Shown piece by piece: positions 34,191-59,281 of a stretch of 64,000 bases of DNA (the first letter of the stretch is position 1; each line of letters opens with the position of its first letter). A model generated the notes under the pieces. The model was not told the DNA's origin and did no database searches. It worked only from the letters and a program-made list of their open reading frames with translations. Source of the stretch: Agromyces mediolanus (GTDB taxonomy: Bacteria > Actinomycetota > Actinomycetes > Actinomycetales > Microbacteriaceae); the NCBI RefSeq assembly GCF_014648575.1, contig NZ_BMRJ01000007.1, forward strand, positions 1 through 64,000, written 5' to 3'. The translations under genes and the position numbers were made by a program.

Positions 34191-37100
34191 CTACTCCTCA
34201 GAGCGCCGGACGCTGCGGCGCCGACGGAGCGGCAGCAGCAGTGCGCCGGCCGCGAGCAGGAACGCCGCGAGCACGCCGGCGCCGAGCGAGACGCCCGTCG
34301 CGGGCAGCCCGCCCACGACGACCGTGGTCTCGTCCGAGGTACGCGGAGGAGTCAGCGAGCCCGGCGGCGTGCCCGTCGCGCTCGCGGCATTGTGCACGCG
34401 GCCGCGCTCGACGTCGGCGGCCGTCAGCCGATAGCTGGCCGTCGCGGTCGCCGACTCGCCCGGAGCCAGCACACCCGGCGCCGAGTCATCCGGCCAGTCG
34501 AAGCGCAGCGTCGACAGCCCGGGCAGAGGGTCGTCGATCGCCACCTCGCGGAGGGTGACCGTGCCCGTGTTGGTGACGAGGAAGCGGAACTCCACGAGCT
34601 CGCCCGTCCGGTCGCCGCTTGCCCGGCCAGTCTTCTCCAGCGCGACCGTCGCGCGTTGCTCCGCGGGCGTGCTCGTGCCGTCCTCGTCGGTGACGAGCGG
34701 CGTGCCGTCGCCCGGCGGGGTGCCGGTGACCGTCGCCGTATTGCGTACGGAGCCGGCATCGACGTCGGCCTGCGTGAGCGTGTACGACGCGCTCGCCGTG
34801 GCCGTCTGCCCGACCTCGAGCACGCCCGGCGCCCCGGGGTCGGGCCATGCGTAGCTGAGCTCGCCGAGCCCGGGGAGGGGATCGCGGAGCACGACATCGT
34901 CGAGCCGCGTGCCGCCGGTGTTCGTGATCGTGAAGGTATAGTCGATCACGTCGCCGGCGACGCCGGACCCGGCGAGCTCGGCGCGCTTGGCCAGCTCGAT
35001 TGCCGGGATCGGATGGCTCGTCGAACGCTCCCCGGACTCGATCCGCGGCCCGCCGGGCGGCGTCGCCGTCGACGTGGCGGTGTTGCGGAGGCGGCCCGCC
35101 GCCTCGTCGGAGACGGTCACGGTGTACGTGATCTCGACGCGCTGCCCCGGCTCGAGGGCGCCGGTCCAGCGCAGCAGCTCGCCCTCGACGACGGGGGCCG
35201 GAGCCGGGGCCCCGTCGATCGTCGCTTCCGGCGCGGCCGCGAGCGCCGCGTTCGCCAGGACCCCGGCGAGCTCGTCGCGGATCTCGACGGGGTCGAGCAG
35301 GGTCTCGCCGGTGTTCACCCCGCTCAGGGTGTAGCGCAGCTGCTCGCCGCGGGAGACCACCGAGCCGTCGGCCGGGCTCGCCGTCTTCTCGAAGCGGTAG
35401 CCCGACACGGGGACCTCGTGCGTGGTCGCGACCTCCGGAGCCTCGAGCACCGGCCCGCCGGGCGGGGTCGCGGTGCCGCTCGCCGAGTTGCGCAGCGTCA
35501 CCCCGGCCGCGGACTCGTCGACGACCACGGTGTAGCGGATCGTGACGGTCTCGTTCGGGCGGAGCGCGCCCGACCACCGCAGCACCGTGCCGTCGAGCGT
35601 CGGCGTCGCAGCGGGCGAACCGTCGATGCTCGCCGTCGCCGCTCCGCGCAGCGCGGCGTGCGCGAGCACCTCGGCGAGCTCGTCTCGGATCTCCACCGGG
35701 TCAAGCACCGTCTCGCCCGTGTTCGTGCCCGTGAGGGTGTACTCGATCGACTGCCCCGGGTGGACGGTGCTGCCGGGCGCGGGGTCGGCGGACTTCGCCA
35801 GGCTGAAGCCGGGCACCGGCACGGCGTGGACCGTCTCGTGTCGACCGCCGTCGAGCGCCTGCCCGGTGCCCGGGGGCTGCGCGGCGCCCGTCGCGACGTT
35901 GCGGAGCCGCTCGCCCGCGGCGTCGTCGGCGACCGCGACCGTGTAGCTGAGCGTCACGGCCTGGCCGACCGCCAGGGTGCCGGTCCAGCGGAGCGTGGAG
36001 CCGTCGAGCACGGGAGCGGGCGCGGGCTCGCCGTCGATCGTCGCGGTCGGGGCGTCGACGAGCTCGGCGTGGTCGAGCACTCCCGAGAGCTCGTCGGCGA
36101 TGGTCACCGGGTCGAGCGGCGTCGCTCCGGTGTTCCGGCCGACGACCGTGTAGCTCACGCGCTCGCCCGGGTTCACCGTCGTCCCGGAGGCGGGCTCGGC
36201 GGCCTTCGCGAGGGCGAAGCCCGGGACCGGCACGGGGTGGGTGGTCGTCTGCTGCGGGGGTGCGAGCGCGGGGCCGGTGCCCGGCGGCTGGGCGGTGGAG
36301 CGGGCGGCGTTGCGGAGAGTGGCGCCGGCGGCGTCGTCGTGCACGGTGACGGTGTAGCGGAGTTCGACGGTCTGGCCGGGTCGCAGGCTGCCGGTCCAGC
36401 GCAGGGTCGTGCCGTCGACGGCGGGGGCGGCGGCGGGTTCGCCGTCGATGGTCGCCGCTGGGTCGCCGGTGAGGTCGGCGTTCGCGAGGACCTCGGCGAG
36501 CTCGTCGGTGACCGTCACCGGGTCGAGCGGGGTGTCGCCGGTGTTGCGTCCGACGAGGACGTAGTCGATCTCGTCGCCGGGGTTCACGGTGCTGCCGGTG
36601 ACGGGGTCCGCCGTCTTGGTGAACTCGTACGCCGGCGTCGGCACCTCGTGCGTCGTCTGCTGCGGATCGGGCGCGAGTGCGGGGCCGGTGCCCGGCGGTT
36701 GGGCGGTGGAACTCGCGACGTTGCGGAGCGTGGCCCCCGCCGCGTCGTCGTGCACCGTGACCGTGTAGCGCACGGTGACGACCGCACCGGGACGCAGACG
36801 GCCCGCCCAGCGCAGCGTCGTGCCGTCGACGACGGGGGCCGCGGCGGGCTCGTCGTCGATCGTCGCGCTCGGCGCTTCGGAGACCGTCGCGTTCTCGAGC
36901 ACCTCGGCGAGCTCGTCACGCAGCGCGACGTCGAGCGGGGTGTCGCCGGTGTTGCGTCCGACGAGGACGTAGTCGATCTCGTCGCCGGGGTTCACGGTGC
37001 TGCCGGTGACGGGGTCGGCCGTCTTGGTGAACTCGTACGCCGGGGTCGGCACCTCGTGCGTCGTCTGCTGCGGATCGGGCGCGAGTGCGGGGCCGGTGCC

Positions 37101-40100
37101 CGGCGGTTGGGCGGTGGAACTCGCGATGTTGCGGAGGGTGGCGCCGGCGGCGTCGTCGTGCACGGTGACGGTGTAGCGGATCGCGACCGTCTGGCCGGGT
37201 CGCAGGCTGCCGGTCCAGCGCAGGGTCGTGCCGTCGAGGACGGGAGCGGCGGCGGGCTCGCCGTCGATGGTCGCCACGGGGTCGCCGGTGATGCTGGCGT
37301 TCGCGAGGACCTCGGCGAGCTCGTCGGTGACGGTCACCGGGTCGAGGGGCGTCTCGCCGGTGTTGCGTCCGGTGAGCACGTAGTCGATCTCGTCGCCGGG
37401 GTTCACGGTGCTGCCGGACTCGGGGTCGGCGGTCTTGGTGAACTCGTACGCCGGGGTCGGCACCTCGTGCGTCGTCCGTCGCGGCCCCTGGGTGAGCGCG
37501 GGGCCGGTGCCCGGCGGTTGCGCCGATGCCGTCGCCGAGTTCCGGAGGGTGTTGCCGGCGGCATCCGCGGCGACGACGACTGTGTACCGCAGGATCACCG
37601 TCTGGCCGCGCTCGAGCCGGCCCGTCCAGCGCAGTTCGGTGCCGTCGAGGGTCGGCGCGGCGGCCGGGCTGCCGTCGATCTCCGCGCTCGGCGTGCCGCT
37701 CAGCGTCGCGGCGTTCAGCACCTCGCCGAGATCGTCCACGACCGTCGTGGGGTCGAGCACCGTCTCGCCCGTGTTCTCGGCGCTGACCGTGTACGTGATC
37801 TCGTCGCCCGGGCGTACCGTCGTGCCGCTGTCGGGGGTCGCGCGCTTGCGGAGTTCGAGCGCGGGCTCCGGCACCGGGTGGAACGTCTGCACCTCGGGCG
37901 CCGTGAGCACCGGGCCGCCCGGGGGAGCAGCGGTGCCGCTCGCGCGGTTCTCGAGCATCGCCCCTGCGGCCTCGGCGTCCACCGTCACCGTGTAGCGCAC
38001 GGTGACGGTCTGCCCCGGGTCGAGCGCGCCGGTCCAGCGCAGTCGGGTGCCGTCGATGGTGGGATCCGTCGTCGCGGTGCCGTCGATCGAGGCGCTCGGC
38101 GTGCCGCTCAACGACGCGGAGCTCAGCACCTCGTCGAGTTCGTCGACGAGCTCGACGGGATCGAGGCGGGTCTGCCCGGTGTTCTCGCCGCGCAGCGTGT
38201 ACGTGATGGTGCCGCCCGGATGCACCTCCGTCCCGGACACGGGATCGGCGGACTTCGACAGCTCGAAGCCCGGAACGGGCACGGCATGACTCGTCTCGCG
38301 CCGACCCGGGTCGATCGCGGGGCCGGTTCCCGGCGGCTGCACCGTGCCGGTGACGACGTTGCCGAGCTCGGCGCCGGCGGCATCCTGGTTCACCGTCACG
38401 GTGTACTCGAGCCGCACCACCTGGTCGGGCTGCAGCTCGCCGCTCCACTCCAGCACGGTGCCGGTGAGCGTGGGGGCGGGCGCCGGGGTGCCGTCGATCG
38501 AGGCGGTCGGCCCGCTCGTCAGCGCGGCGTGCTCCAGGACCTCGGCGAGCTCGTCGCGGAGCTCGACGTCGAGCGGGGTCTCGCCGCTGTTCGTGCCCGT
38601 GACGACGTAGGTGACCGTCTGGCCGGGGTCGACCGTCGAGCCGGACGGGGGCGTTGCGCTCTTCGCGAGATCGAACCCGGGTCGCGGCACCTCGTGCGTC
38701 GTCTCGACCTCGCTCGCGACGATCGGCGGCGCGGAGCCCGGCGGTTGCGCCGTGGCCCTGGCGTGGTTCGCGAAGCTGCTCCCGGCCGCATCGTCGTCCA
38801 CGCGGACGGTGTACTCGATCGTCACGGTCGCGCCCGCCGGCAGGGCGCCGGACCAGGCCAGGCGGGTGCTGGTGAGGGTCGGCTCGGCAGCGGGCGCGCC
38901 GTCGATCCGGGCGCTCGGGGAGCCGACGAGCGAGCTCGCCGCGAGCACTTCGCTGAGGTCGTCGCTGATCTCGACGGGATCGAGCAGCGTCGCGCCGGTG
39001 TTCCGGCCGGTCACGGTGTAGGTGATCTCCGATCCGGGCGCGACGGTGGAGCCGGATGCCGGGTCCGCGCTCTTCGCGAAGATGAATCCCGAGGCGGGCA
39101 CCGGATGCGAGGTGGACTGCTCGCCGCTCTCGATCGGCGGGAATCCGCTCGGCGGCGTCGCCGTCGCGTCGGCGACGTTCGTCAGCGTCACGCCGGAGGC
39201 GTCGTCGTGCACGGTCACCGTGTACTCGATCGTCACGCGCTGCCCGGCGTTCAGCACGCCCGTCCAGCGCAGCGTCGTGTCGTCGAGGACCGGATCCGTG
39301 GTGGCCGTGCCGTCGATGGTCGCGGTCGGCGAGCCGGTCAGGGAGGCGTGCTCGAGGACGCCCGCGAGGTCGTCGGTGACGGTGACCGGGTCGAGCGGGG
39401 CGTCGCCGGTGTTCTCCGCGACGAGGGTGTAGGCGATCTCGTCGCCGGGGTGCACGGTCGCGCCGTCGGCCGGGGCGGACCGCTTCTCGAAGTCGAGGCT
39501 CGCGCTGCGGATCGGCGTCTCGACGGCGTCCTCCTGCCGGATCGGCTCGGAGCCGGGCGGCTGCGCCACCCCGGTCGCCGTGTTGCGCAGCACTCCGCCG
39601 CTCGCATCGGCGTCGACGAGGACGGTGTAGGTGATGCGCACGAGCTGATCGGGTTCCAGCCGCCCGCTCCAGCGCAGCGTCGTGCCGTCGATGACGGGGT
39701 CGCTCGCGCGGACCGAGCCGATCCAGGCCTCGGGGCCGGTGACGACGGTGCCGTCGTCGAGGACGTCCGACAGGTCGTCGGTGATGGTCACCGGGTCGAG
39801 CGCGGTGCCGCCGGTGTTCGTGCCGGTCAGCTGGTACTCGACGCGGTCGCCCGGGTCCGCGGTCCGGGCGGCGAAGGGAGAGGCCACCGCGTCGGCGGCG
39901 GCGCGGAGGCCGGCCATGAAGAGGTCGCCGAAGTTCACGACCATGTTGTCCTTGCGCAGTTCGAAGCCGGGCGTCGGGATCGGATGCGTCGTGGTGGATT
40001 CGGGCGATTCGATCACGGGCCCGGCGGGCGGGACCGCGCGGCCGTCGGCACGGTTCTCGAGTCGCTGCCCTTCGGTGCCCTGGTTCACGCGGACGGTGTA

Positions 40101-42212
40101 GGCGATCGTGACGATCTCGTCGGGGTCGAGCACTCCCGACCAGCGCAGCACCGTGCCGTCGACGGTCGGCGCCGTGGCGGGCTCGCCGCCGATCGTCGCC
40201 GTCGGGCCGTCCACGATGGCGGCGTCGTCGAGCACACCCGCGAGCTCGTCGGTGACGGTCACGGGGTCGAGTCGCGTCTCGCCGGTGTTCGTGCCCGTGA
40301 TCGTGTACCGGACCTCCTCGCCCGGGTGCACCGCCGTGCCCGAGGCGGGCGCGGCGGACTTGCCGAGCTCGAAGCCCGGCTCGGGCACCGGATGGCTCGT
40401 GGAGACGCCCTCGGGCACGATCGGCGAGCCGCCGACGGGCGTCGCCGACGCCGAGGCGTCGTTGCGGATCGTGGCGCCCGCGGCATCCTGGTCCACCGTC
40501 ACCGTGTAGCGGACGGTGACCCGCTGCCCCGGCTGCAGCACCCCCGTCCAGCGGAGCTCGGTGCCCGCGAGCGTCGGCGCGGCGGCCGGCTCGCCGTCGA
40601 TGTCCGCGGTCGGCTGGACGGTCAGCGTGGCGTGGTCGAGCACCTGGGCGAGCTCGTCGGTGAGCCGCACCGGGTCGAGCGGCAGTTCGCCGGTGTTCTC
40701 GCCGACGAGCGTGTAGCTGATCGTGCGGCCGGGTTGGACGCGCGTGCCGGTGGCCGGGTCGGCGGTCTTCGTGAGCTCGAAGCCGGGATCGCGGCGAATC
40801 AGCCCGGCATCCTGGTCGAAGTTCCGCGGCGTCGCGGCGTCGAGACGGATCGGGTCGGTGAGGCCGTTGCTCGGGTCCGCGGCGGAAGAGGAGTCGGGCG
40901 CGCCCGCGCCGCGCGCGGTGAAGAACCAGCCGTTCGGCATCCCGGAGAAGCGCACCCGGTACTCGCCGTACGCGAGTTCGCCGAAGAGATAGTCGCCCGA
41001 GGCGTCCGTGGTCGTCGTGATCGGCGTGCCGTCGGCCGCGAGCACCGGCTCCCCGGCACCGTCGAGGAGCTCGACGGTGATGCCCGCCACCCCGGTCTCG
41101 CCGACGTCCTGCAGCCCGTTCTCGTTCTCGTCGACCCAGACGCGATCGCCGAGCTCGGCGTGCTGCGGCAGCCGCACGGACAGGATCGAGTAGTCGGACT
41201 GATCGCCGTCGCTCGGGCCGGTGGGCAGCCGCATCCGCTCGCCCCACACGACGTTGAGGCCGTTCTGGCCGTCGGCGAAGATGTCGCCGTCGTTGCGGAA
41301 GTAGTTCGCCCCGGTGCGGTGCGTGCTCGTCGGCCAGCCGCTGAACCGGGAGATGAAGGTGTCCATCTCGAACGACACCTCGGTGAAGGTGCCGTGCAAC
41401 TGCACCGATCCGCAGCCCGCGAGCGCCATGTTCGGCGATTCGAAGCGCGTTCCGGCGGCCGCCTTCTCGGCGACCCCGCAGCTGCCGGAGGTGTTGTCGG
41501 CGATCGTCCGGAGTCGCCCTCGGTCCACGACGAGGTTCGTCGGGGCCTCTCCGGCGAGGGTCATCGTCACGCCCGGGGTGGTGATGACCCACTCCTGGGA
41601 GTTGAACGAGCCCTTCGCGTACTCGACGCCGTCCTCGGTCGTCCAGCCGTAGTAGCCCCAACCGCCGATGCCGCCGAGGTCGAGGACGGGGTCGGTGACG
41701 GCGCGGTCGAAGGCGAGCGTCACGGTCGTCGTCGAGGGGCAGAGGCCGTTGAAGTTCTGATGCCCGGCGCTCCCGAGCGCGCCGTCGCAGGTCGAGGCGT
41801 TCGTGAGGACGCCGAGCCCGGGCACGTTCGACGGCGTCGGCGCCCCGAGGAACATGCCCGACGTGGCGCCGTGCCCGCCCCAGCCCTGCGAGTTCGTGTT
41901 GGTGAGGATGTTGGTGCCGGCCACCTGCCCGGGCGCGGTCATCGTGGCGGTGACGCCGATCGGACCCGAGCGGGTCTGGAGCTGCGAGGTCGCGCGCATC
42001 GTGGCCGCCGTGCGGTGCGCGCCGGGCGTGTTCGCCGTCGTCGCGGAACCCGGGCTCACGAGCTGCCACGGCTCGTTGATGACGTAGCCGTTCTCCTCCG
42101 CGGCGGACGCCGGGCCCGTCGGCGCCATCAGCTGCGGGGCCACGAGCCCCGTGAGCGCGACGACGCTCGCGGTGAGTACCGCCAGTGCTCGCGCGATCCA
42201 CCCCTGTTGCAC
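34191..42212 (-). CDS. Giant LPXTG-anchored repeat surface protein (SdrD-B and DUF11-type repeats)
   Basis: 2673 residues. A Sec signal peptide (about 1-38, ending GPASA) is followed by an unclassified beta-rich region (about 40-350, Gly/Thr/Asn-rich with paired Cys). An SdrD B-like domain (LGDRVWVDENENGLQD, about 352-432) follows, then 14 DUF11-like repeats of about 137 residues, two shorter related repeats of about 115, and the sorting signal LPATG at 2636-2640 with a hydrophobic helix and RRRR tail. Repeats 9-11 are nearly identical. Repeat 3 has an odd helical insertion. It is probably a stalk-like adhesin or matrix protein. No sortase is in the window. GTG 42212 has a GAGG site. Confidence 0.92.
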   Translation of the reverse strand: MQQGWIARALAVLTASVVALTGLVAPQLMAPTGPASAAEENGYVINEPWQLVSPGSATTANTPGAHRTAATMRATSQLQTRSGPIGVTATMTAPGQVAGTNILTNTNSQGWGGHGATSGMFLGAPTPSNVPGLGVLTNASTCDGALGSAGHQNFNGLCPSTTTVTLAFDRAVTDPVLDLGGIGGWGYYGWTTEDGVEYAKGSFNSQEWVITTPGVTMTLAGEAPTNLVVDRGRLRTIADNTSGSCGVAEKAAAGTRFESPNMALAGCGSVQLHGTFTEVSFEMDTFISRFSGWPTSTHRTGANYFRNDGDIFADGQNGLNVVWGERMRLPTGPSDGDQSDYSILSVRLPQHAELGDRVWVDENENGLQDVGETGVAGITVELLDGAGEPVLAADGTPITTTTDASGDYLFGELAYGEYRVRFSGMPNGWFFTARGAGAPDSSSAADPSNGLTDPIRLDAATPRNFDQDAGLIRRDPGFELTKTADPATGTRVQPGRTISYTLVGENTGELPLDPVRLTDELAQVLDHATLTVQPTADIDGEPAAAPTLAGTELRWTGVLQPGQRVTVRYTVTVDQDAAGATIRNDASASATPVGGSPIVPEGVSTSHPVPEPGFELGKSAAPASGTAVHPGEEVRYTITGTNTGETRLDPVTVTDELAGVLDDAAIVDGPTATIGGEPATAPTVDGTVLRWSGVLDPDEIVTIAYTVRVNQGTEGQRLENRADGRAVPPAGPVIESPESTTTHPIPTPGFELRKDNMVVNFGDLFMAGLRAAADAVASPFAARTADPGDRVEYQLTGTNTGGTALDPVTITDDLSDVLDDGTVVTGPEAWIGSVRASDPVIDGTTLRWSGRLEPDQLVRITYTVLVDADASGGVLRNTATGVAQPPGSEPIRQEDAVETPIRSASLDFEKRSAPADGATVHPGDEIAYTLVAENTGDAPLDPVTVTDDLAGVLEHASLTGSPTATIDGTATTDPVLDDTTLRWTGVLNAGQRVTIEYTVTVHDDASGVTLTNVADATATPPSGFPPIESGEQSTSHPVPASGFIFAKSADPASGSTVAPGSEITYTVTGRNTGATLLDPVEISDDLSEVLAASSLVGSPSARIDGAPAAEPTLTSTRLAWSGALPAGATVTIEYTVRVDDDAAGSSFANHARATAQPPGSAPPIVASEVETTHEVPRPGFDLAKSATPPSGSTVDPGQTVTYVVTGTNSGETPLDVELRDELAEVLEHAALTSGPTASIDGTPAPAPTLTGTVLEWSGELQPDQVVRLEYTVTVNQDAAGAELGNVVTGTVQPPGTGPAIDPGRRETSHAVPVPGFELSKSADPVSGTEVHPGGTITYTLRGENTGQTRLDPVELVDELDEVLSSASLSGTPSASIDGTATTDPTIDGTRLRWTGALDPGQTVTVRYTVTVDAEAAGAMLENRASGTAAPPGGPVLTAPEVQTFHPVPEPALELRKRATPDSGTTVRPGDEITYTVSAENTGETVLDPTTVVDDLGEVLNAATLSGTPSAEIDGSPAAAPTLDGTELRWTGRLERGQTVILRYTVVVAADAAGNTLRNSATASAQPPGTGPALTQGPRRTTHEVPTPAYEFTKTADPESGSTVNPGDEIDYVLTGRNTGETPLDPVTVTDELAEVLANASITGDPVATIDGEPAAAPVLDGTTLRWTGSLRPGQTVAIRYTVTVHDDAAGATLRNIASSTAQPPGTGPALAPDPQQTTHEVPTPAYEFTKTADPVTGSTVNPGDEIDYVLVGRNTGDTPLDVALRDELAEVLENATVSEAPSATIDDEPAAAPVVDGTTLRWAGRLRPGAVVTVRYTVTVHDDAAGATLRNVASSTAQPPGTGPALAPDPQQTTHEVPTPAYEFTKTADPVTGSTVNPGDEIDYVLVGRNTGDTPLDPVTVTDELAEVLANADLTGDPAATIDGEPAAAPAVDGTTLRWTGSLRPGQTVELRYTVTVHDDAAGATLRNAARSTAQPPGTGPALAPPQQTTTHPVPVPGFALAKAAEPASGTTVNPGERVSYTVVGRNTGATPLDPVTIADELSGVLDHAELVDAPTATIDGEPAPAPVLDGSTLRWTGTLAVGQAVTLSYTVAVADDAAGERLRNVATGAAQPPGTGQALDGGRHETVHAVPVPGFSLAKSADPAPGSTVHPGQSIEYTLTGTNTGETVLDPVEIRDELAEVLAHAALRGAATASIDGSPAATPTLDGTVLRWSGALRPNETVTIRYTVVVDESAAGVTLRNSASGTATPPGGPVLEAPEVATTHEVPVSGYRFEKTASPADGSVVSRGEQLRYTLSGVNTGETLLDPVEIRDELAGVLANAALAAAPEATIDGAPAPAPVVEGELLRWTGALEPGQRVEITYTVTVSDEAAGRLRNTATSTATPPGGPRIESGERSTSHPIPAIELAKRAELAGSGVAGDVIDYTFTITNTGGTRLDDVVLRDPLPGLGELSYAWPDPGAPGVLEVGQTATASASYTLTQADVDAGSVRNTATVTGTPPGDGTPLVTDEDGTSTPAEQRATVALEKTGRASGDRTGELVEFRFLVTNTGTVTLREVAIDDPLPGLSTLRFDWPDDSAPGVLAPGESATATASYRLTAADVERGRVHNAASATGTPPGSLTPPRTSDETTVVVGGLPATGVSLGAGVLAAFLLAAGALLLPLRRRRSVRRSEE
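34320..40795 (-). repeat. Tandem array of 16 DUF11-type repeat units in the surface-protein gene
   Basis: Units begin with P-G/A-F/Y-E-x-x-K-x-A-D-P-x-S-G and contain the motifs YTLTGxNTG, LDPVTVTDEL, LRWTGxLxPGQ, YTVTV and AxPPG. The DNA period is about 408-411 bp for units 1-14. Units 9, 10 and 11 (about 36228-37456) are close to identical over long stretches, indicating recent duplication or gene conversion. Confidence 0.92.
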
Positions 42213-50906: not shown

Positions 50907-52352
50907 TCAGCGCCGGGCGGCCGCGCCGAGGAACGGCGCCGGGTCGAAACGTCCGTTCAGCGCCCGGAAGCGGGAGGCGCGCTCCGGCCAGATCACCGTC
51001 AGCCTCCCGGAGCGCGGATCCACGTACCGGTTGCCGCAACCGGCCGCCCACACGGTGCGCGCCGCCATCCGTTCGATGCGCGCCGTGTAGGCGGCTTCCG
51101 CCTCCGGCGACACCTCGAGCGCCCCGCCGTGCCTGCGCAGGTGGTCGAGTGCGCCGAGCACGTAGTCGATCTGGGCCTCGATCACCTCGAACGCGGAGTG
51201 GTGGCCGAGCGCGGCGTTCGGCCCGTCGAGGACGAACAGATTGGGGAACCCGGAGACGACCACGGAGGCGTAGCTCGTCATCCCGTCGCGCCAGTGCTCG
51301 TCGAGCGAGCGTCGCCGGGCGCGGATCAGTCGTGCGAACGGCGGGCGCACCGTCTCGAAGCCCGTCGCCAGGATCAGCGCATCGAGGCGGTACTGCGCGC
51401 CGGACGCCGCCAGCGCCGTACGCCCGTCGTCCGCGATGCCGGCGAGCGCGCTCGCTTCGAGCGTCACGTCGTCGCGGGCGAGCGCCGGATAGAACCGGTC
51501 GCTGAAGACCGCGCGCTTGCAGCCGATCTCCGCGGTCGGGGCCAGGCGCCGCCGGAGCTCCTCGTCGGCGACCTGGCGGCGGAGGTGCTCGCGCGCACGT
51601 CGTGCGAGTGCGGCCCCCTCGGGCGAGCCCCGCAGCCTCGCGGCGAAGAGGCCCTCCGCCTGCGCCGCGAGCTCCCGCCTCGAGGGGCGCGGCTCGGACG
51701 GGGCGTAGGCGGCGTCCTCGCGGGGCAGCACCCAGGCGGGCGTGCGTTGGAAGACGATGAGCCGAGCCGCCCGCCCGGCGAGCTCGGGCACCAGCTGGAC
51801 GGCGCTCGCCCCGGTCCCGACGACGCCGACGCTGCGGCCCTCGAGCTCGGGAGCGGTCCAGTTCGCCGAGTGCGCCACGGGGCCGGCGAACCCATCGAGT
51901 CCGGCGACGTCCGGCATCCGCGGCTCGCTCAGCCGCCCCGCCGCCATCACGAGCGCCCGGCTCCGCACCGTGCCGGTCGACGTGCGAAGCAGCCAGCACC
52001 CGCGCTCCTCCAGCCACTCCGCCCGTTCGAGCGCCGTGCCCAGGCGGAGGTGCGCGTCGACCCCCTCGGCGACCACCGTGGCGTCGAGGTACTCGAGCAG
52101 CTCGGCCCCGGGGGCGAAGCGTCGCGTCCAATCCGGCTTCGGGCGGAACGAGTACTCGTAGAGGTGGCTCGGGATGTCGCAGGCGACGCCCGGGTAGACG
52201 TTGTCGCGCCAGGTGCCGCCGATGCGCTCGGCCCGCTCGAGCACCAGGAAGTCGCGGATCCCCGCCCTCCGGAGCCTCGCGGCCATGCCGATCCCCGCGA
52301 TGCCGGCGCCCACGATCACCGCTTCGCGGATCGGCGCGCTGTCCACGGTCAT
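50907..52352 (-). CDS. Flavin-containing monooxygenase, Baeyer-Villiger type
   Basis: 481 residues. FAD loop GAGIAGIG at 15-22, the diagnostic BVMO fingerprint F-x-G-x-x-x-H-x-x-x-W as FAGPVAHSANW at 155-165, and NADPH loop GTGASA near 179. BVMOs insert oxygen beside a carbonyl using NADPH and O2; the substrate is unknown. ATG 52352 overlaps the fbiC stop by 4 bp, so it is co-transcribed with and translated after fbiC. No F420-binding feature is seen in it. Confidence 0.9.
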   Translation of the reverse strand: MTVDSAPIREAVIVGAGIAGIGMAARLRRAGIRDFLVLERAERIGGTWRDNVYPGVACDIPSHLYEYSFRPKPDWTRRFAPGAELLEYLDATVVAEGVDAHLRLGTALERAEWLEERGCWLLRTSTGTVRSRALVMAAGRLSEPRMPDVAGLDGFAGPVAHSANWTAPELEGRSVGVVGTGASAVQLVPELAGRAARLIVFQRTPAWVLPREDAAYAPSEPRPSRRELAAQAEGLFAARLRGSPEGAALARRAREHLRRQVADEELRRRLAPTAEIGCKRAVFSDRFYPALARDDVTLEASALAGIADDGRTALAASGAQYRLDALILATGFETVRPPFARLIRARRRSLDEHWRDGMTSYASVVVSGFPNLFVLDGPNAALGHHSAFEVIEAQIDYVLGALDHLRRHGGALEVSPEAEAAYTARIERMAARTVWAAGCGNRYVDPRSGRLTVIWPERASRFRALNGRFDPAPFLGAAARR

Positions 52353-54625
52353 CTCGTCCCGTAGTCGGTCGTGCGTTCGCGCACCGGGCGTCCGAGCTCG
52401 CCGGCGAGGGCCTCGGCGTCCGTCGTCGTCAGTCGGCGTCCCGACTCCGGGGCCGGCGCCCCGCGTCCCGGGACGAGCAGTCCGCCGAGGTCGTCCGCCC
52501 CGCCCGCGAGGGCGAGCTGCGCCGCGCGGAAGCCGAGCTTCGGCCAGGCGGCCTGCACATGGTCGACGCTGCCGCTCAGCACCAGCCTCGACACCGCGAC
52601 GACCGCCCGCACCTCCCGGAGCGACGGCCCCGGGCGCGCGCCGGCGACCGGTACCGGCGAATCCGCGGGCACCCACGGCATCGGGATGAACTCGGTGAAC
52701 CCGCCGGTCTCGCGCTGGATGCCGGCGATCCGCCGCAGGTGGGCCAGTTGCTGCGTCGGCGTCTCGACGTGCCCGAACACCATCGTCGCGGTCGAGCGGA
52801 GCCCCGCGCCGTGCGCCGTGCGGATCGCGCGCTCCCACTCGGCCGACGAGATCGCACCGCCCCCGCTCAGCGCGGCCCGCACCGGGTCGTCCAGGATCAG
52901 CGCGCCCGTCCCGGGGACGGTGTCGAGCCCCGCCCTCCGGAGCCGCCGCAGCCACGCGTCGAGCGGGGTCCCCGCACGATGCGCCGCGGCCAGCAGCTCG
53001 CCGGGCCGGAACGCGTGCAGATGCACCGGCCCGCCCCGCTTGACCGCCATGACGAACGACTCGACGTCGCCGCCCGCGACCTCGCCCTGTGCGCAGATCT
53101 CGGTGACCCCGAGTTCGACGGCCTCGGCGACCGCGGCGCTGAGCGCGGCCTCGGTCCAGGCGACGGCCGGGTCCAGGTTCTGGTTGACGACGTAGCTGAC
53201 CTCGTCGCCGACGGAGCGGCGACGCACCTCGTCGGCGACGGCGGCGAGCGCGTCGAGATCGTCGCCCTCCGCGTGCAGCAGCGCCAGGTACTCGGCGTCC
53301 TCGAGGTCGGCGGGGTCGGCGAGGGCCCGGCGCAGCACCGCGTCGAGCCAGGCATCGCGGCGCGCGAGCCCGGACGCGCTCGCGAGCCCGAGCACCGCCG
53401 GGGCGAGGCGGTCGTCGAGCCAGTCGCCATCCGGCAGTCCGTCCGCACCTCGATCTCCACGGGAGGCGCGGACGTATTCGGGATGAGCGGTCAGCCGTTC
53501 GCGCAGCACGAAGCCCTGCGCGGCGGTGAGCCGTGCGAGTTCCTCGATCTGCGGCCAGGGGCGCTCGGGATTCACGTGGTCCGGGGTGAGCGGGCTGACC
53601 CCGCCCCAGTCGTCGACGCCGGCGCGGAGCAGCAGCGCGAGTTCCGGCTCGTCGGTGAGGTTCGGCGGCGCCTGGAGCCGCATCGACGGGCCGAGCAGGA
53701 GCCTGGTCACCGCGACCGCCGCGGCGTACTCCTGCGTCGCGAGGTCCGCGGTGTCCCGCATCGCAGTCGACGGCTTGGCCCGGAAGTTCTGCACGATCAC
53801 CTCCTGCACGTGGCCGAAGCGCTCATGGAGTTCGCGGAGCGCCACGACGGCGTCGACGCGCTCGGCCGGGGTCTCGCCGATCCCGAGCAGGACGCCGGTC
53901 GTGAAGGGGATGCGGGCCCGCCCCGCGTCCTCGATGACTCGGAGCCGGAGAGCGGGGTCCTTGTCCGGCGATCCGTAGTGCGCGGCTCCGCGGGTCTCCC
54001 ACAGGCGGCGCGACGTCGTCTCGAGCATCATCCCCATCGACGGGGCGACCGCGCGCAGCCGCTGCAGCTCCGCCCAGCTCATCACCCCGGGGTTCAGGTG
54101 GGGGAGCAGCCCGGTCTCGTCGAGGATGCGACGGGCGACGGTCGCGACGTAGTCGAGCGTCGAGGAGTGCCCGTGGGCGTCGAGCCAGTCGCGGGCTTCC
54201 GGCCAGCGGTCCTCCGGACGGTCGCCCAGGGTCAGCAGCGCCTCCTTGCAGCCGAGCTCGGCGCCGGCGCGCGCGATCTCGAGCACACGGTCCTCGTCGA
54301 GGAACATCGTCTCGCCGGCGCGGGCGAGCTGGCGGGGCGTCTCGACGAAGACGCAGTAGTGGCAGCGGTCCCTGCACAACCGTGTGAGCGGGATGAAGAC
54401 CTTCCGGGAGTAGGTGACGACGCCGGGGCGGCCGGCCGCGCGGAGGCCGAGGTCGCGCACCGCGCCGGCGGCGGCGAGCAGGCGATCGAGGTCTTCGCCG
54501 CGGGCGTCGAGCAGGAGTTCGGCGTCGGCGCGGCCGGGCGGCCGGACGGCGTCGAGGCGGTGGAGCGCGCCGTCGAGGGCGGCGGAGCGCTCGGGGGAAC
54601 GCAGGAGCGGGACGGGCGTGGGCAC
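52349..54625 (-). CDS. fbiC: FbiC-like CofG/CofH fusion with degenerate CofH half
   Basis: 758 residues. FbiC makes the deazaflavin precursor FO for coenzyme F420 with two radical-SAM halves. The CofG half is intact: CRDRCHYC gives Cys84, Cys88 and Cys91, with HLNPGVMSW and FTTGVLLGIGET following. In the CofH half, VVNQN (479-483) is followed at once by LDPAVAWTEAAL, where relatives have the second C-x3-C-x2-C. About 20 residues with the cluster are missing in frame, and the later MQGG is AQGE. The remainder (GLDTVPGTGALILDDPVR, GGFTEFIPMPWVP) is clearly CofH. GTG 54625 has a GGAGG site. The protein is about 100 residues shorter than mycobacterial FbiC. Confidence 0.88.
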   Translation of the reverse strand: MPTPVPLLRSPERSAALDGALHRLDAVRPPGRADAELLLDARGEDLDRLLAAAGAVRDLGLRAAGRPGVVTYSRKVFIPLTRLCRDRCHYCVFVETPRQLARAGETMFLDEDRVLEIARAGAELGCKEALLTLGDRPEDRWPEARDWLDAHGHSSTLDYVATVARRILDETGLLPHLNPGVMSWAELQRLRAVAPSMGMMLETTSRRLWETRGAAHYGSPDKDPALRLRVIEDAGRARIPFTTGVLLGIGETPAERVDAVVALRELHERFGHVQEVIVQNFRAKPSTAMRDTADLATQEYAAAVAVTRLLLGPSMRLQAPPNLTDEPELALLLRAGVDDWGGVSPLTPDHVNPERPWPQIEELARLTAAQGFVLRERLTAHPEYVRASRGDRGADGLPDGDWLDDRLAPAVLGLASASGLARRDAWLDAVLRRALADPADLEDAEYLALLHAEGDDLDALAAVADEVRRRSVGDEVSYVVNQNLDPAVAWTEAALSAAVAEAVELGVTEICAQGEVAGGDVESFVMAVKRGGPVHLHAFRPGELLAAAHRAGTPLDAWLRRLRRAGLDTVPGTGALILDDPVRAALSGGGAISSAEWERAIRTAHGAGLRSTATMVFGHVETPTQQLAHLRRIAGIQRETGGFTEFIPMPWVPADSPVPVAGARPGPSLREVRAVVAVSRLVLSGSVDHVQAAWPKLGFRAAQLALAGGADDLGGLLVPGRGAPAPESGRRLTTTDAEALAGELGRPVRERTTDYGTR

Positions 54626-58795: not shown

Positions 58796-59281
58796 GTGCC
58801 GCGCACCGTCGATCTCGTCCGGGCCGTCGTCGCCCCGCTGACCCGCACCTCCGTGTTCCGTGCCGCCGCGCCCGCGGTCCTGCCCCGCCTCGAACGGCTG
58901 CTCGCCCGTCTGACCGGGCGTCGCGTGCAAGTGAGCGCGCTTCTGGTGCCCTCGCTCGTCCTGCGGACGACGGGCGCGCGCAGTGGGGCGATCCGGGAGA
59001 CGGAGCTGATGTACACGCCCGACGGCCACGGTCGGGCGATCGTCGCGGGCACGAGCTTCGCGAGGCAGCGGCATCCGGCCTGGACCTACAACCTGCTGGC
59101 CCACCCGGAGGCCGAGATCCTCGTCCGCGGCCGGGCGATGCGGGTGCGGGCGCTCCCGGTCGCCGACGTCGACCGGGACGAGGCCTGGGCCCTCATCGAG
59201 CGCCAGTGGCCGGGGTATCGCGGCTACGAGCGCGAGTCGGGGCGGGTCGTGCGACTGTTCCGTCTGCAGCCGGTGCGGTAG
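58796..59281 (+). CDS. Deazaflavin (F420)-dependent nitroreductase-like protein
   Basis: 161 residues with the DDN-type split beta-barrel: LVLRTTGARSGAIRETELMYTPDGH (split) and WTYNLLAHPEAEILVRGRAMRVRAL, ending with the WPGYRGYERESGR segment. Family members bind F420 or sometimes heme or lipids. Its presence suggests F420 use in the cell, relevant to the odd fbiC. CAGAAT is 6 nt before GTG 58796, so it is leaderless. Confidence 0.87.
   Translation: MPRTVDLVRAVVAPLTRTSVFRAAAPAVLPRLERLLARLTGRRVQVSALLVPSLVLRTTGARSGAIRETELMYTPDGHGRAIVAGTSFARQRHPAWTYNLLAHPEAEILVRGRAMRVRALPVADVDRDEAWALIERQWPGYRGYERESGRVVRLFRLQPVR

Follow-up and report, generated by a model that had tools for sequence, protein, structure and literature searches.

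The first 64,000 nucleotides of Agromyces mediolanus contig NZ_BMRJ01000007.1 (assembly GCF_014648575.1; this whole stretch is the window) encode a variant of FbiC, the fused CofG–CofH synthase of the deazaflavin FO, in which the CofH half lacks the cysteines of its radical S-adenosylmethionine (radical-SAM) cluster. According to a 2021 review, every producer of the cofactor F420 studied so far makes FO through one universal mechanism that relies on a pair of radical-SAM domain enzymes (PMC8498797). The locus raises the question of what such a protein is for. The answer that we favor, with a probability of roughly two in three, is that the “Cys-less” CofH half and the Baeyer-Villiger-type FAD monooxygenase (BVMO) encoded beside it replace the radical-SAM CofH step, such that an O2-dependent first half of the pathway would be followed by a normal CofG second half. 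This reading rests on features of the sequences: the loss of the cluster, the conservation of the barrel, the fixed partner gene, the failure to find any other CofH, and the F420 gene context. The identity of the pair's product with that of CofH, and all of the chemistry leading there, we infer.

The two halves of the window protein differ in the state of their cluster motifs (Table 1). As the original prediction had it, the CofG half keeps its C-x3-C-x2-C motif (CRDRCHYC at residues 84–91, made up of Cys84, Cys88 and Cys91), and it scores 475.7 bits against the CofG model TIGR03550 (cut-off 213.35). The same prediction described a CofH half without a cysteine triad, and this description holds over the entire half: C-x3-C-x2-C is absent there, including from sites to which the triad might have moved, and the sole cysteine is Cys511, a residue conserved in both Cys-less and canonical CofH that directly precedes the sequence AQGE (residues 512–515). 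With no triad for a radical-SAM cluster, the protein is not expected to carry out the known CofH reaction, again as had been proposed. The score against the CofH model TIGR03551 is 304.5 bits, under the cut-off of 374.1, and that against the fused CofGH model NF006687 is 941.8 bits, under the cut-off of 1018, with one cluster motif present instead of two. Between the VVN and TEIC blocks we count 33 residues in the window protein versus 54 or 55 in canonical CofH (67 of 99 rows measurable), hence 21 or 22 residues are missing, in line with the predicted loss of about 20.

To place this variant, FbiC similarity searches were made in 60 relatives, in a collection of named genomes, and in a sample of 297 genomes from the order, the best three candidates per genome being scored in the last of these. 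Eight of the 60 relatives gave a match, and the window's genus accounts for two of the eight. Among the order-sample genomes, 55 carry FbiC or CofG, of which 24 are Cys-less, 30 canonical, and one truncated. From the named collection we took the best 80 of 592 relatives, and 10 of these 80 loci are Cys-less: the isolates Promicromonospora soli, Humibacter albus, Subtercola boreus and Microbacterium barkeri; metagenome-assembled genomes of Microbacterium (two), Herbiconiux, Cryobacterium and Actinomycetales; and a record titled Acidobacteriaceae bacterium BOG_194. Of the named loci listed, this last record (isolate BOG_194) has the FbiC most similar to the window's, with 66% identity in the best segment, and the record is possibly a mislabelled bin. 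Altogether, and with G010 included, 35 Cys-less and 100 canonical loci (triad present) were classified among 135 with an intact region, a set that is not a random sample given how the named loci were chosen. Outside this count lie a CofH end that is truncated and lacks the loop region (L206, genome G052), the duplicate loci L214–L216, and five fetched stretches in which no CofH half is present. One Cys-less locus whose CofH frame is broken in the assembly (L180) belongs to the 35 and is left out of the 34-row Cys-less alignment; likewise L209 belongs to the 100 and is left out of the canonical alignment (99 rows, 98 distinct). In a quick tree of the 34 Cys-less rows and 39 of the 99 canonical ones, with the cluster-loop columns removed, a single branch parts the Cys-less from the canonical halves with an SH-like approximate likelihood ratio (SH-aLRT) support of 100.

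The Cys-less half is a coherent family rather than a collection of private losses. The column of the first cluster cysteine holds cysteine in none of the 34 Cys-less rows and another letter in 30; the columns of the second and third are gaps in all 34, and the remaining printed loop columns are gaps in 32–34. The stretch from VVN to TEIC ranges from 33 to 47 residues across these sequences (30 of 34 measurable). The position of Arg540 is arginine in 34/34 Cys-less and serine in 99/99 canonical sequences, and a change from aspartate to glutamate is likewise fixed in 34/34. At 144 positions, 95% or more of the 99 canonical sequences agree, and 50 of these positions, including Glu, Cys, Gln, His and Trp residues, are kept in at least 90% of the 34 Cys-less sequences. 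Across 13 pairs, the ratio of nonsynonymous to synonymous substitution (dN/dS) of the Cys-less half is 0.18–0.34, the pairs being mutually related and the synonymous difference (pS) reaching 0.55 in the most distant; in 10 of the 12 pairs that allow the comparison the CofG half has the lower ratio, and the monooxygenase partner has a ratio of the same order as the Cys-less half. Judged from these sequence comparisons, the Cys-less half is under purifying selection and is not decaying. An AlphaFold2 model of the Cys-less domain, built from an alignment of 39 canonical and 11 Cys-less rows (the window among the 11), is a barrel with pLDDT 92.1 and pTM 0.90, and the solved fold closest to this predicted barrel is that of the aminofutalosine synthase MqnE (6xig, TM 0.84), placing the model within the CofH/MqnE type of barrel. 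MqnE itself acts in menaquinone synthesis as a working radical-SAM enzyme, which sets it apart from the Cys-less barrel.

What distinguishes the Cys-less loci most sharply is the gene that adjoins them. An orthologue of the window's monooxygenase (P0003) lies next to the Cys-less half in 35/35 loci and next to a canonical half in 0/100, the canonical loci having been inspected over flanks of up to 6 kb (named) or mostly ~3–4 kb (others), shorter at contig ends; on these counts a chance neighbor can be rejected. The partner is on the same strand as the Cys-less CofH in all 35, and in 30 pairs the stop of one gene and a possible start of the next could share four bases in frame (ATGA or GTGA). 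In three of the other loci (L020, L029 and L202), ~0.8 kb separates the two genes, and in two the gap is shorter. The partners beside other Cys-less halves are 46–64% identical to the window's by BLAST. By both sequence and fold the closest solved structures are those of cyclohexanone and phenylacetone monooxygenases (7v8o, 1w4x), at ~28% identity. The motif FxGxxxHxxxW, which we take to be the mark of the type I BVMO family, reads FAGPVAHSANW in P0003 and is found in 34 of 35 partners; Arg280 aligns with Arg329 of the cyclohexanone monooxygenase TmCHMO, presumably the catalytic arginine, and this position is arginine in at least 94% of the 35 partners. The window's partner thus resembles type I BVMOs in these respects and differs from them in its low identity, its shorter length (481 residues), its own branch, and its link to F420 genes.

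In the order sample (best five candidates per genome), the monooxygenase occurs at E ≤2.8e-125 in 25 genomes, namely 23 of the Cys-less genomes plus G336 and G167, which have no FbiC match and in which the gene adjoins an alpha/beta hydrolase; the 24th Cys-less genome, G117, gave a partial match. In a quick tree the partners fill one side of a branch (SH-aLRT 95), with the G336 and G167 genes nearest, and some canonical genomes hold more distant BVMO paralogues elsewhere. A search of the class (best four candidates per genome) found a BVMO at E ≤1e-108 in 47 of 394 genomes, 42 of them new. Of the 20 loci fetched from these 42, six (L243–L248, 51–55% identity) hold a further Cys-less CofH/BVMO pair, in addition to the 35, and the other 14 (41–49% identity) have no CofG or CofH in the fetched stretch. 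Seventeen order-sample Cys-less genomes from two genera (11 in f15/g15, 6 in f8/g8) carry CofG as a separate gene, on a different contig in two of them; because the Cys-less CofH still adjoins the BVMO in these genomes, the conserved unit is CofH–BVMO. The CofG motif is intact in 35/35 Cys-less genomes (CRDRCHYC in 31, CQDRCHYC in 4).

The original prediction offered a separate CofH, a new role for the enzyme, or loss of F420 synthesis as ways to account for the missing cluster. A separate CofH finds no support: a search at E up to 10 of the window's genome (3.86 Mb in 11 contigs, 99.97% complete) gives no second FbiC or CofH match, and TIGR03551 is over its cut-off in 0/35 Cys-less genomes and in 3/3 controls. 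Loss of F420 likewise lacks support and was rejected, since the window's genome has cofE, cofC, fbiA and a gene for F420-dependent glucose-6-phosphate dehydrogenase (Fgd; 602 bits), all at 1163–1187 kb of contig C1. The new role comes closest, although the accompanying picture of a private in-frame loss gives way to that of a widespread family kept by selection, whose fixed monooxygenase partner had gone unmentioned. A deazaflavin-related gene that the prediction had placed at 58796 is indeed there: the plus-strand frame 58796–59281 matches Pfam F420H2_quin_red (PF04075) at 77.9 bits.

Elsewhere the pair sits among F420 genes. fbiA is over its cut-off in 35/35 Cys-less genomes, a total made up of 14 from one search and 24 from another with three shared between them, and in the first 14, which were scored further, cofE is over its cut-off in 14 and cofC in 12, the remaining two lying under the cofC cut-off of 105 (G062 at 104.0, G043 at 90.8). 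Five loci (L157, L158, L159, L160 and L214) have the order FbiC–BVMO–Fgd–cofC, mostly with overlaps of 1–4 bases; Fgd is over its cut-off in all five and cofC in four (101.1 in L158). L161 has an FbiC/BVMO operon of the same type without Fgd, and in L245 the order is FbiC–BVMO–cofC, with fbiA and cofE within 4 kb on the opposite strand. Humibacter locus L215 brings together the Cys-less/BVMO pair, fbiA, and a CofE–CofC fusion. In Humibacter albus this fusion (L215:4842–6332) is 496 residues long, with cofE over its cut-off and cofC at 100.8. Inspection of these eight operon loci (L157–L161, L214, L215 and L245) revealed no further common enzyme besides the BVMO.

It is informative to consider how such a pair might work. 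Known CofH cleaves tyrosine to generate a p-hydroxybenzyl radical, addition of this radical to the diaminouracil is followed by an oxidation, and CofG closes the ring (PMC8498797, PMC8210684). The net CofH product equals a p-hydroxybenzyl cation equivalent (p-quinone methide) added to C5 of the uracil. The CofH barrel, minus the Fe–S/SAM loop, probably still binds 5-amino-6-ribitylaminouracil. The BVMO, with NADPH and O2, could turn tyrosine or 4-hydroxyphenylpyruvate into a 4-hydroxybenzyl electrophile such as p-quinone methide, either by N-oxygenation of tyrosine with release of glyoxylate oxime or by Baeyer-Villiger oxidation of 4-hydroxyphenylpyruvate with release of oxalate; flavin peroxide chemistry is a conceivable basis for both. 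C5 of the diaminouracil would then trap the electrophile, yielding the same compound that canonical CofH forms through a radical, after which the intact CofG half would close the ring to FO, and fbiA, cofC and cofE would complete F420. This chemistry would account for the sufficiency of a single additional enzyme, for the survival of a barrel that has lost its cluster, and for the constant pairing of the two genes. We nonetheless put forward only tentatively, as something short of an even chance, this specific form of a second FO route, in which the monooxygenase supplies a p-quinone-methide-type electrophile and the disarmed barrel scaffolds its ionic addition to the uracil.

Compared with the canonical FO synthase, the Cys-less system shares the order of the halves when fused, the CofG motif, the barrel of the CofH half, and the F420 gene context; it differs in lacking the cluster cysteines and loop, in the fixed Ser-to-Arg and Asp-to-Glu changes, and in its BVMO neighbor. 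O2-dependent stand-ins for radical-SAM enzymes are familiar from other pathways, with ThiO in place of ThiH and HemF in place of HemN, and ThiH also cleaves tyrosine between Cα and Cβ. By analogy, an aerobic flavin- or O2-using enzyme may have taken over a radical-SAM step here as well, with the difference that the disarmed radical-SAM barrel is retained and paired with the new enzyme. On paper, the Cys-less family breaks the rule of two radical-SAM domains in 24 of the 55 FbiC- or CofG-bearing genomes of the order sample. The removal of one of the two radical centers, next to a gene for an O2-using flavin enzyme, suggests an undescribed oxygen-dependent route to F420 in some actinobacteria. 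If true, this would be a further instance of aerobes putting a flavin/O2 enzyme in place of an oxygen-sensitive radical step, here with the original protein retained as a scaffold, and the pair might offer a more air-tolerant first half for F420 production in other hosts.

Several observations weigh against replacement of the CofH step by the pair. We know of no BVMO that performs such chemistry, and in the open-licence literature of PubMed Central we found neither a report of a Cys-less CofH, or of a BVMO in FO synthesis, nor a measurement of FO or F420 in a strain that bears the pair. In the window's genome the pair lies apart from the other F420 genes; FxGxxxHxxxW, being present in 20/20 outgroup paralogues, is no marker of the partner; the predicted model of the monooxygenase has only moderate confidence (pLDDT 75.9); and BVMO relatives of 41–51% identity occur without FbiC nearby (14 of the 20 class loci, G336 and G167). 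Furthermore, 94 of the 144 conserved canonical positions fall short of 90% conservation in the Cys-less sequences. These losses, together with the low TIGR03551 score and the missing cluster loop, are what one would cite for a degenerate remnant, a mere structural appendage of CofG or, in the extreme, a sequencing or assembly error. We consider this very improbable, and as a reading of the family it is already contradicted: the Cys-less half is common to 35 genomes, four named isolates among them, which rules out an error of sequencing or assembly; the dN/dS values of the 13 related pairs rule out a pseudogene; the Ser-to-Arg change is fixed in 34/34; and in 17 order-sample genomes the domain is encoded apart from CofG yet alongside the BVMO.

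A more serious objection comes from genomes that appear to use F420 without making FO. Of 113 order-sample genomes with fbiA, 60 have no FbiC homologue (57 of 110 over cut-off), and six of these belong to the window's genus (G003, G007, G021, G022, G239 and G284, without FbiC or CofG). Since F420-using relatives can live without FO synthase, fbiA is no proof of FO synthesis. Their FO perhaps comes from uptake, or may come from a third pathway. If FO is scavenged by the bacteria with the pair too, the CofG/Cys-less CofH/BVMO set might make or modify another deazaflavin or ribityl-uracil product, or recycle or degrade F420, and a FecCD-type ABC transporter encoded amid the F420 genes in the window's genome would suit such a scheme. 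This main rival strikes us as unlikely, though worth keeping in mind, because several genomes have the pair inside an F420 operon alongside cofC, Fgd, fbiA or cofE, because every Cys-less genome retains the CofG cluster motif, and because the only CofG substrate known to us is the CofH product. It is also worth considering that the BVMO acts later or on the uracil, for example in oxidation of the adduct, while the Cys-less barrel couples a benzyl donor from general metabolism; formation of the CofH product ends, in the review's account, with an oxidation that a flavoenzyme could supply (PMC8498797). No source of a free 4-hydroxybenzyl donor was noticed in the operons inspected, however, and four FbiC-less BVMO relatives (L219, L220, L250 and L252) adjoin alpha/beta hydrolases by Pfam, neighbors expected of ester-forming enzymes, so that we regard a late-acting monooxygenase as improbable.

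Table 1. Coordinates of the FbiC variant, its sequence features and the adjoining monooxygenase gene in the window
Feature	Position	Strand	Details
Variant fbiC (CofG half plus Cys-less CofH half)	52349..54625	minus	758 aa, GTG start
Intact CofG radical-SAM cluster motif, CRDRCHYC	54353..54376	minus	residues 84–91
Cys-less CofH domain, residues 405–758	52352..53413	minus	predicted intact barrel
Site of the missing cluster loop: VVNQN (479–483), then LDPAVAWTEAAL (484–495)	53141..53191	minus	alignment
Arg540 codon	53006..53008	minus	fixed change versus canonical Ser
Baeyer-Villiger-type FAD monooxygenase (P0003), 481 aa	50907..52352	minus	solved relatives, fingerprint, adjacency
4-base stop/start overlap (ATGA) of fbiC and monooxygenase	52349..52352	minus	window sequence

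Some observations concern other genes of the window and its genome. The transporter among the F420 genes is of FecCD/Peripla_BP_2 type and is accompanied by a small open reading frame without a Pfam match (L110:13922–17544, G000:C1); a similar-looking set was noticed by eye in G003 (L112:10800–14395), and a deazaflavin importer is a possible function. In L111:8349–16832, also on G000:C1, fbiA lies amid genes for CoA-transferase III, LigB, carbon-nitrogen hydrolase, amidohydrolase and F420-dependent LLM oxidoreductase proteins, which perhaps form an F420-dependent ring-degradation cluster. Finally, the minus strand of the window at 34191–42212 encodes a predicted protein of 2673 residues with a signal-like N-terminus.

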